64,000 nt of DNA from Janibacter cremeus (GTDB taxonomy: Bacteria; Actinomycetota; Actinomycetes; Actinomycetales; Dermatophilaceae). This document shows positions 4,131 through 6,754 of this stretch, in pieces. Each line of letters opens with the position of its first letter. Position 1 is the stretch's first letter. A program made the position numbers and the translations under genes. The stretch lies in NCBI RefSeq assembly GCF_029395675.1, contig NZ_CP115184.1, positions 1,364,001-1,428,000 of the forward strand, in the 5' to 3' direction. The notes below the pieces were generated by a model. The model did no database searches. It was not told the origin of the DNA and saw only the letters and a program-made list of their open reading frames with translations.

Positions 4131-4805
4131 TCAACCCGCCACCGGTTTGAGCCGGTAACCCACTCCCCGCACCGTGAGGATGCGCTCGGCGCCGATCTTG
4201 GAGCGGAGCGAGCGCACGAAGACGTCGACGACGTTGGATCCCGGGTCGAAGTCCATGTCCCAGACCATGCCGAGCAGCTGCTCACGGGAGAGGACCTGGT
4301 CGGCGTGCTCGACGAAGGCCTCCAGGAGGGAGAACTCCCGGGCGGTCAGCTCCACCTCACGGTCGGCCGCGCGGGCGGTGCGCCGCCGGATATCGAGGCT
4401 GAGGTCACCGGCGGTCAGGGTCGCCTCCTCGGCGGGTGCGGCGCCCCCTTCGCGCAGTCGCAGCCGGACCCGGGCGAGCAGCTCGGCGAACTGGAAGGGC
4501 TTGGTCATGTAGTCGTTGGCCCCGCCCTCGAGCCCGGTGACCGTGTCATCGACGCCGTCCCGGGCGGTGAGGATGATGACCGGGATCGCGACGCCGTCCG
4601 CGCGCAGGCGACGCAGCACCTCGAACCCGTCGAGCCCCGGCAGTCCCACGTCGAGGACGAGCAGGTCGAAGGCGCCGGTGGAGGCCAGCGCCCATGCCTG
4701 GCGACCGTCGGCCGTCAGCGTCGTGACGAACCCGCTCGCCCGCAGCCCCTTGTCGATGAAGCTGGAGATCTCCTCGTGGTCCTCCGCGATGAGGATGGCG
4801 CTCAT
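4131..4805 (-). CDS. Response regulator, OmpR/PhoB family
   Basis: 224 aa. Receiver domain with IAEDHEE and the phosphoacceptor Asp52 in [10 protein letters not shown], followed by an OmpR-type winged-helix DNA-binding domain (about 128-222) ending [14 protein letters not shown]. It lies directly after the histidine kinase gene: the kinase TAG at 4806-4808 abuts this ATG at 4803-4805. It is the last gene of a three-gene minus-strand operon (Asp-rich membrane protein, kinase, regulator). Known OmpR regulators bind direct repeats upstream of target genes and often of their own operon; I did not identify a convincing repeat. Confidence 0.93.
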
Positions 4806-6296
4806 CTAACCCTCCGCTGTGCTCGGCACCAGGCCGTCCTGGCTGCTGTGGTCGTGCTCGACCGGGATGAGGAGGGTGAAGACCGCACCCTGCCCCGGCG
4901 CGCCGCCCACCCGGACGCGGCCATCATGCCCCTCCGCGATGGCGCTGACGATGGCGAGGCCGAGCCCGGCACCGCTGTGGCGGCGCCCGTCGGGAGGTTC
5001 GCCGTGGGTGAACCGCTGGAAGATGCGCTCCCGGTCGGCGACGGCGACGCCGGGCCCGGTGTCGCCGATGCTGATGGCCAGGGCGTGGCCCAGCTGCGGG
5101 TCGTCGATGAACTCCGACGTCAGGGTGATCGCGTCACCCTCGGTGGTGTGCTGGACGGCGTTCTGCGCGAGCTGGAGCACGGCCTGGGTCACCCGCTCGG
5201 AGTCCAGCCGGGCCTCGCCCTCGGCGATCTGGTCCACCCGCCAGCGGCGGTCGGCCAGCGCCGAGATCTTGGCCTCGAGGGCGACGGTGAGCATGGAGAC
5301 GTCGACGCCCGCGACCGGGCGGATGAAGTCGGGACGGTCGGCCTTGGCGAGGGCGAGCAGGTCGGTGACGATCCGGCTCATCCGGTCCAGCTCCTGGGTG
5401 ACGACGCGCATCGTCCTCTCCCGGGAGACGGGGTCGTCGTCCATGAGCTCGAGGTGACCGCGGATGACCGTGATCGGGGTGCGCAGCTCGTGGCCGGCGT
5501 CGTCGACGAAGCGCTGCTCCGCCCGGAAGGCCTCCTCCAGTCGGTCGAGCATCCGGTTGAAGGTCGAGGCCAGTCCCGACACGTCGTCGTCCCCGACGTC
5601 GATGCGCCGGGTGAGGTCCTGCTCGGTGATCTCCTCGGCCGCCGCGTGGACGAGCCGCACCGGACGCAGCAGTCGGCCGGCGACGACCCAGGAGACCACG
5701 CCCGCGAGGAGGAGGGCGAACACCGAGGCCATCACGAGCATGCGGACGGTCTGGTCCGCCTCGGTCATCGCCGGCTCCGTGAAGAACGTCACCAGGAGCA
5801 CGGCGTCCTCGCCGTCGGCGACCTCGACGATGGTCCGGGCCCACCGCATCTCACCGGCCGGGGTCTCGTGGGTGCCGGACGCGGAGCGTGTGGTCCGCTC
5901 GAGCAGCTCCTGGTCACGGGTGAGGTCGTACGCCTCGGCCGTGGGAGCCCTGGCCCCGCGGGAGATGGTCACGGTGCCCTCGGTGCCCACGTACCCGACG
6001 AGCATCTCGTCGGGGCTGGGCTGCTGCCGGGACAGATAGACCTGCAGGAGGCGCTCGGCCGAGGTGAAGGGACGCGAGGTCTCGGGGTCCACCCCCTCCT
6101 GGGTGAACGTGCGGAACTCCTGGATCTCCTGGGTGACATCGGCGTTGGCACTGTCGGTCACCGACAGGCGCAGGGTCTCGTGCACGACGATGACCACGGA
6201 GAGCAGGGTCACGAAGAGGATGAGCACCATCCAGCCCACGATGGTCTCGCGGGACAGCCGGGGACGGCGTCGCCGCGTGGGCGCCTCAGTACTCAT
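4806..6296 (-). CDS. Sensor histidine kinase, HisKA/HAMP type
   Basis: 496 aa membrane kinase. TM1 is at about 20-40, an extracytoplasmic sensor domain at about 41-182, TM2 at about 183-206, HAMP at about 207-260, the HisKA box [10 protein letters not shown] with His269, then HATPase_c with QNAVQHT, DTGPGVA and [10 protein letters not shown]. This is the EnvZ/PrrB-like architecture. The ATG at 6294-6296 overlaps the TGA of the upstream Asp-rich protein (ATGA), so the two are translationally coupled. The stimulus is unknown, but the coupling to a protein with a poly-Asp tail makes a cation or cell-envelope signal plausible (inference). Confidence 0.93.
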
Positions 6297-6754
6297 CAGT
6301 CGTCGTCGTCATCATCATCGTCCCGGTCGTCATCGTCGTCATCGTCGTCATCATCATCGTCGTAGACCGGCGGGGGCGGCGCCTGTGTTCGCGTCACGGA
6401 GGGCTGCGGTGTCCAGGTGGGCCGGGTCGTGGAGGTGGGCCGGGGCGTCGTCCGGGTGGTCGAGGTCGGGGCCGGCGCGGGCTGCGAGGTGGACGAGGGC
6501 GTTGATGGTGACGTCGGTGTGGATGAGGAGGACGTCGAGGGGGACGTCGAGGACGTGCCGGACGTCGGCGAGGACGTCGAGGACGTGCCGGACGTCGGCG
6601 AGATCGTGCTCGTCGTCAGCCGCACCGGCCCCTCCTCGACGGGCGGGGGGTCGGCCGGTGCGGCAGCGACGCGGAAGCCGAGGAACACGAGCAGGGGCAC
6701 GCTGAGCAGCGCGACGAGCAGCATGCCCTCCCGCCCGATGCGCCAGCGGCTCAT
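6296..6754 (-). CDS. Membrane-anchored Ser/Thr/Pro-rich protein with poly-Asp tail
   Basis: 152 aa, no family recognised. Residues 10-32 form one hydrophobic helix (signal anchor). Residues 45-130 are a low-complexity Ser/Thr/Pro linker like a glycosylated cell-wall stalk. Residues 132-143 are twelve Asp, followed by Arg144 and eight more Asp to the C-terminus. The Asp run uses both GAC and GAT codons. The linker includes a perfect tandem 30-nt repeat (6543-6602). It is the first gene of the operon and overlaps the kinase start by ATGA. By topology the acidic tail should lie outside the membrane, where it could bind divalent cations or cationic peptides and modulate the kinase. That role is inference. 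Confidence 0.7.
6543..6602. repeat. Two perfect 30-nt tandem copies
   Basis: Copies at 6543-6572 and 6573-6602 are identical. They lie inside the Ser/Thr/Pro linker of the Asp-rich protein and each adds ten residues, so copy number would change stalk length without shifting frame. This is typical of slippage-prone surface-protein linkers. Confidence 0.9.

Follow-up and report, generated by a model that had tools for sequence, protein, structure and literature searches.

The window analyzed here, a stretch of 64,000 nucleotides from the Janibacter genome under study (G000:C1:1364001-1428000), carries on its minus strand three consecutive genes, which in the order of transcription code for a protein ending in a run of aspartates (6296..6754, 152 aa), a sensor histidine kinase (4806..6296, 496 aa) and an OmpR-family response regulator (4131..4805, 224 aa). 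The three ORFs are tightly packed, the first two having one base in common within a TGATG overlap and the regulator gene beginning on the base right after the kinase stop. An earlier sequence-only reading had described this order correctly, and it had placed an ATGA coupling between the tail gene and the kinase gene, which is wrong; ATGA instead joins the tail gene to a 14-codon leader ORF (6751..6795, minus strand), the stop of which overlaps the tail-gene start and which is placed between the operator described below and the tail gene. A comparable short ORF overlapping the start of the tail gene can be read in one of the other loci (L014). On the opposite strand, a NarL-type two-component system, recognized from translations only (about 2300-4110, with ORFs around 1792-3486 and 2298-4106), ends beside the regulator gene and is convergent with it.

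The translation of the tail gene bears out the layout that had been proposed for its product, i.e., 152 residues comprising a membrane helix, a Ser/Thr/Pro stalk and a tail of composition D12-R-D8. The hydrophobic segment covers residues 11-27 (6674..6724, minus strand) and could be a signal anchor or a signal peptide, while the tail makes up the last 21 residues (6299..6361, minus strand). Runs of eight Asp codons (GAYx8) are found at one gene in the whole genome, the tail gene, with six overlapping matches. The protein has no family in Pfam (E <= 0.1), where PepSY was among the domains not detected, nor in NCBIfam, and seven homologues were retrieved from a set of 5.8 billion proteins (E between 2e-29 and 1.5e-14), none of them bearing a name. 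In 60 loci with a comparable gene the stalk has about 80 residues, 65% of them Ser, Thr, Pro or Ala (medians), and varies in length, and the tails add up to 1018 Asp versus 97 Glu. The segment after the helix follows by eye, unscored, the rough pattern Pro-x-hydrophobic-Gly/Glu-x-x-hydrophobic-x-hydrophobic. When four Janibacter tails were compared codon by codon, GAC and GAT were swapped while Asp was mostly retained. GAT accounts for 8 of the 20 Asp codons in the window tail versus 2 of 37 in the window kinase, and over the 60 loci its median share is 0.24 in tails and 0.07 in kinases, with 52 loci showing the larger share in the tail. The use of GAT in these tails is several-fold above the GC-rich norm, and GATGAC often provides the start codon of the kinase. 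Long internal Asp runs were also seen, in several relatives, in an unrelated family (L059, L064, L071, L077, L078, L080 and L081; start ..DPRAAL...ALERHLEA..), the genes of which have no kinase nearby.

The kinase and the regulator form an OmpR/EnvZ-type two-component system, as the sequence-only reading had stated. The kinase matches HAMP (residues 205-255), HisKA (260-321) and HATPase_c (365-480) above the Pfam cutoffs, and the regulator has a receiver domain (Response_reg, 97.6 bits) and a Trans_reg_C domain (87.1 bits). Two hydrophobic segments are seen in the kinase alignment and between them lies an extracytoplasmic domain with approximate boundaries (about residues 43-182; 5751..6170, minus strand). 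The named NCBIfam kinases (CusS-like, MtrB, WalK, BaeS, PmrB, EnvZ and others) were all rejected, every match among the best 25 of 75 families being below its curated cutoff. The best model, TIGR01386, gave 186.7 bits against a cutoff of 292.6; EnvZ proper gave 89 against 415 and MtrB 155 against 450, so the kinase is not MtrB. Nine Janibacter records match it at 67-78%. The search for solved relatives of the ectodomain gave none at E <= 0.1, and two chance-level matches at 0.23 and 0.81. Across the loci the ectodomains are acidic, with a median net charge of -10 (range -21 to +5) and about equal numbers of Asp (646) and Glu (725), indicating that the tail does not just supply the opposite charge. 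The charges of ectodomain and tail rise together (rho 0.46, p 3e-4, kinship ignored), which gives no support for a basic docking site.

To follow the tail gene through evolution we collected relatives of the kinase from three sources: related genomes, of which 62 out of 147 gave a match, a species collection (22 loci), and a set of 396 genomes across the phylum, in which the four top candidates of each genome were scored and 64 genomes gave a match. After dropping duplicates and loci with less than 450 nt of upstream sequence, 139 loci were kept; the counts leave out 29 kinase places, three from the 147-genome search and 26 from the 396-genome search, the latter including G356:C1 (559 bits) and G501:C104 (545 bits). 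Genes in the relatives were called by open frame and GC3. Tail genes were scored with a strict rule and with a loose one (a hydrophobic segment together with nine Asp/Glu, seven of them Asp, among the 30 C-terminal residues); L114 and L181 are positive by the loose rule and negative by the strict one, L020, where the profile match is split, was set positive by hand, and eight loci holding a partial kinase took their score class from the phylum-wide search. The third gene is conserved beside the kinase: by the strict rule it precedes 48 of the 61 kinases scoring above 500 bits, 9 of 34 at 400-500, 1 of 11 at 300-400, 1 of 18 at 200-300 and none of 15 below 200 (49, 10, 1, 1 and 0 by the loose rule), compared with 0 of 15 other HisKA kinases used as a control (seven from the genome under study and eight from G039). 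Leaving Janibacter out, the top class has it in 35 of 48 loci (36 by the loose rule). Within Janibacter, where the sequence-only reading had proposed to look for the same gene order, an Asp-tail gene stands beside the kinase in 13 of the 13 loci with upstream sequence, and two further kinases (L006 and L008) are located at contig ends. The lack of the gene beside kinases of close relatives, which that reading had named as a refutation, was not observed there. One genome of the genus, G014, gave no kinase match at E <= 1e-40; it is also devoid of the operator box, of the GT28 gene described below and of any run of eight Asp. The regulator gene follows the kinase in 50 of the 51 top-class loci with enough sequence.

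The distribution of the tail gene follows the kinase phylogeny. On a tree of 81 kinases (loose labels, L020 left out) the tail label changes 13 times, the mean of shuffled labels being 25.0, with none of 500 shuffles as low. The starred branches of the tree force at least 10 changes, indicating several losses or gains. In the clade of the window kinase all 19 loci have the tail gene, including five genomes (code g89) read as Streptomyces; the top matches of one kinase of this kind (L102, from G413), at 91-93% identity, carry the name Streptomyces among the best 120 of 7218 matches. The association spans Streptomyces, Actinomadura and other Actinomycetota. Under the strict rule the remaining 13 of the 61 top-scoring kinases have been kept without a tail gene, which shows that the kinase can do without the tail. 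In the wider clade a different protein may occupy the same slot: L190 has a PepSY protein there (L190:559-1248; PF03413, 53 bits) and L191 looks similar by eye, while L178, L179 and L181 have tryptophan-rich helix-linker proteins. Loci that lack the tail gene can also be without any such gene.

Upstream of the operon we found a candidate operator, a box GATGAAGATCTCCTCATG plus two further repeats at 11-bp steps (6844..6883, minus strand), followed by the hexamer TACGGT (6829..6834, minus strand), a putative -10 element. The box that precedes tail genes has the form GATGA-N8-TCATC, continued by TCAY repeats every 11 bp, a spacing that is typical of OmpR-type sites. Its 10-base inverted repeat is exact before the tail gene in 28 of 60 loci and has at most one mismatch in 41, compared with 0.0 and 0.8 loci after dinucleotide shuffling. 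Most of the promoters displayed have a box ending about 20-40 bases 5' of the start codon and a -10-like hexamer near the ATG, which suggests that most such loci may produce leaderless transcripts; the leader of the window promoter is longer than in most loci. Our first version, GATGA-N8-TCATC alone, was rejected because it lacked specificity, with 2 to 8 matches in each Janibacter genome, and failed to recover the window site, where the last bases are TCATG. Including the following 11-bp repeat solved this. The resulting 17-position box has exactly two perfect copies in each of five Janibacter genomes (G000, G005, G007, G011 and G013), one at the own operon and one at a single other place. 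Allowing one mismatch, matches were present in 18 of 20 further genomes and in neither G014 nor G124, the latter having kinase and tail and yet no box.

The gene after the box could be read in 21 loci other than the operon itself. A GT28-like glycosyltransferase comes next in five (G000, G007, G006, G003 and G035), a P-loop protein without a Pfam family in four (G013, G011, G008 and G012), DUF4956 in three (G005, G031 and G070) and an exported repeat protein in four (G012, G004, G001 and G070). The remaining five precede nothing that fits the regulon; in G413 one of them comes before a gene for a citrate-transporter family protein, immediately behind the regulator. L304, L269, L263, L258 and L262 are loci that fall outside the regulon, and the match at G010:C11 resembles a chance site or a metal-regulator site. 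Beyond the 21, three more boxes were found before GT28 genes and two before repeat-protein genes. Exported repeat proteins after a box (L245, L251, L261, L267, L302 and L303) contain VDGNI motifs and match DUF4097 weakly, below the cutoff. In the window strain the GT28 target lies outside the window (G000:C1:773344).

Several of these targets belong to operons for surface polymers. The GT28 operon of G007 has the order GT28, GT4, GT4, an MsbA-like ABC exporter and two APH-fold kinases, and its GT4 proteins resemble exopolysaccharide enzymes (187 bits with the EpsE model, below the cutoff of 400). A VTC domain follows DUF4956 in G005, and the available text of one study describes DUF4956, poly-phosphate polymerase and CotH genes as companions of Gram-positive Pel polysaccharide clusters (PMC7112168). 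The GT28 gene is present in 17 of 98 genomes, all of them among the 41 with a relative of the kinase (P 3e-8, kinship ignored); outside the genus, seven of seven genomes with GT28 have the kinase relative (P 2e-4, kinship ignored). With up to two mismatches the box is found before 13 of 16 GT28 orthologs (shuffle mean 0.0), a set that excludes two genes in which no N-terminal motif was found and counts once a gene split in two matches; the three orthologs without a box include that of G112, despite its contiguous operons. The linkage is also physical. In G001 and G112 the succession tail, kinase, regulator, GT28, GT4, GT4, ABC, APH is uninterrupted, in G052 kinase, regulator and glycan operon adjoin with no tail gene, in G031 the DUF4956-VTC genes come after the trio of tail, kinase and regulator, and in G070 the trio is divergent from them. 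The glycan operon of G035 (L278, G035:C22) ends with a second Asp-tail ORF, ending at position 9892, whose protein has a hydrophobic segment, a Ser/Thr stalk and an Asp/Trp tail. The repeat operator thus stands before its own operon and before the targets, marking what is, as predicted from these sites, an autoregulated OmpR-type regulon. The sequence-only reading had omitted both the autoregulatory operator and the surface-polymer regulon; its observation is confirmed, its interpretation is supported in part, and the system is larger than it described.

Operon order, co-conservation with one kinase clade, the candidate operator, the putative regulon and physical linkage can all be read from the genomes themselves. 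On these grounds the tail protein very probably serves as accessory to a kinase in control of surface-polymer genes. The explanation that best accounts for the whole, to which we give a probability of roughly 45%, is that it would be a dedicated extracytoplasmic accessory and that the two-component system would control a regulon of surface-polymer export together with its own operon. The mechanism that we favor, although tentatively, is a cation bridge. The tail protein would be inserted with its N-terminus in and its C-terminus out, the segment just past the helix would contact the kinase and the Ser/Thr/Pro stalk would raise the tail, so that divalent cations could bridge the Asp tail and the acidic ectodomain of the kinase. 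Stripping or displacement of these cations, e.g., by cationic peptides or by exported polymer, would open the bridge and alter the activity of the kinase, and the regulator would then bind the box near the -35 region. Since the tails are dominated by Asp and the ectodomains are already acidic, an extra polyanion would need such a bridge; the combination of two acidic partners with a marked bias towards Asp points to divalent cations lying between the two, by the logic known from PhoQ. An acidic ectodomain is just as compatible with a tail and a kinase that make no contact at all. A more speculative extension, which we regard as rather improbable, would turn the system into a charge gauge of the cell surface, with the Asp tail mimicking in genetically encoded form the polyanion that the cell exports. 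Tail, kinase ectodomain and surface polymer would then compete for the same cations, and the kinase would read the leftover cation and adjust polymer synthesis and export through the operator common to the tail gene and the polymer operons, with PepSY and the other slot modules acting as alternative probes on one kinase clade. If true, bacteria would count surface cations with a poly-Asp antenna.

The strongest rival, possible but clearly less probable than the explanation above, is that the tail protein is an output of the system and not part of the sensor, i.e., an exported polyanion that would hold Ca2+ or anchor polymer at the surface, its co-transcription with the regulators being explained by autoregulation of the operon. 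That tail gene and polymer genes are preceded by one and the same box fits this reading, as do the second Asp-tail ORF at the end of the G035 glycan operon and the several kinases of the clade without a tail gene. It does not account as readily for the position of the tail gene, directly before the kinase and often overlapping its start, throughout those 48 top-scoring loci. Neither does it for the glycan operons, since among six of them (L236, L239, L279, L278, L306 and L307/L308, the ORF rule having been applied to all except L236 and L239) an Asp-tail ORF lies inside L278 alone, and a search for runs of eight Asp gave no second gene in the window strain. Another alternative assigns the main role to the stalk, which would be a glycosylated rod spanning the wall, kept soluble or wall-bound by the tail, with the kinase reading tension or wall thickness through the helix. 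The composition and variable length of the stalk and the envelope regulon are consistent with this, and Ser/Thr-rich exported proteins of actinobacteria can be glycosylated. The excess of Asp over Glu, about ten to one, goes beyond what solubility needs, and we consider the rod unlikely.

Two further readings concern the run of codons itself. The tail could act in cis, an Asp/Pro-rich nascent chain disturbing the ribosome and so metering translation of the overlapping kinase gene. The kinase start overlaps the Asp codons or sits within them in many loci (GATGAC gives the ATG), and acidic runs do destabilize ribosomes, although according to the available text of the source the effect falls mainly within the first 30-40 residues and is offset by nascent chain in the tunnel (PMC9718836). 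Because the effect acts mainly early in the ORF, a cis role is disfavored for a protein in which about 130 residues come before the Asp run; a leader working by intrinsic ribosome destabilization was rejected for the same C-terminal position of the run. The spacing between tail and kinase is also variable, some genes overlapping and others lying tens of bases apart, and the tails of the 60 loci share no fixed arrest motif, all of which makes the cis reading very improbable. That the Asp run is a functionless product of repeat expansion is scarcely credible. GAC and GAT trinucleotides could slip, but the mixed codons break pure repeats and argue against simple slippage, and the recurrence of acidic tails across the phylum with one kinase clade largely refutes it.

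The dedicated accessory that we prefer would belong to a system that recurs across Actinomycetota, Streptomyces included, and whose tail protein is still without a Pfam or NCBIfam family: an orphan low-complexity protein that can now be linked with a single kinase clade, a single operator and a group of genes for surface polymer. The signal of this widespread orphan two-component system is now testable with a single promoter reporter. Kinase accessory proteins are known in principle. In the literature covered, to which subscription papers contribute little, we came across no report of an Asp-tail accessory gene accompanying a kinase, nor of such an operator or regulon. The relatives of the Streptomyces kinase exceed 7000 sequences, with generic names among the matches listed, and one of the Streptomyces systems that already have a name may be orthologous.

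Among the systems already known, MtrAB-LpqB likewise consists of a conserved actinobacterial kinase, an OmpR-type regulator and a third, extracytoplasmic protein, LpqB being a lipoprotein. In QseG-QseE and CpxP-CpxA too, a HAMP-type kinase is acted on through its ectodomain by an accessory protein, an outer-membrane lipoprotein in the case of QseG and a periplasmic protein in that of CpxP; the available text of the sources mentions a poly-Asp tail for neither. The ectodomain of PhoQ has an acidic patch. The likeness to divalent-cation sensing of the PhoQ type lies in an acidic ectodomain that Mg2+ or Ca2+ could bridge, as far as the accessible part of the source goes (PMC8719878), with the difference that in the present system a second protein would contribute a large part of the acidity. 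Within Actinomycetota, the HbpS-SenS-SenR system of Streptomyces similarly has a secreted protein that is encoded beside a kinase-regulator pair and modulates the kinase, according to the available text (PMC4991794, PMC9739842). HbpS is an octameric iron- and haem-related protein (PMC3754957) linked to oxidative stress, whereas the window protein consists of an anchored, low-complexity stalk that ends in an Asp tail, and its putative regulon concerns surface polymer. A further parallel in genetic layout is found in the wider clade of the kinase itself, where the PepSY-slot proteins (L190, and L191 by eye) likewise place a helix, a linker and a C-terminal module just upstream of a related kinase, the module being a folded PepSY domain in their case and an Asp run in the window protein.
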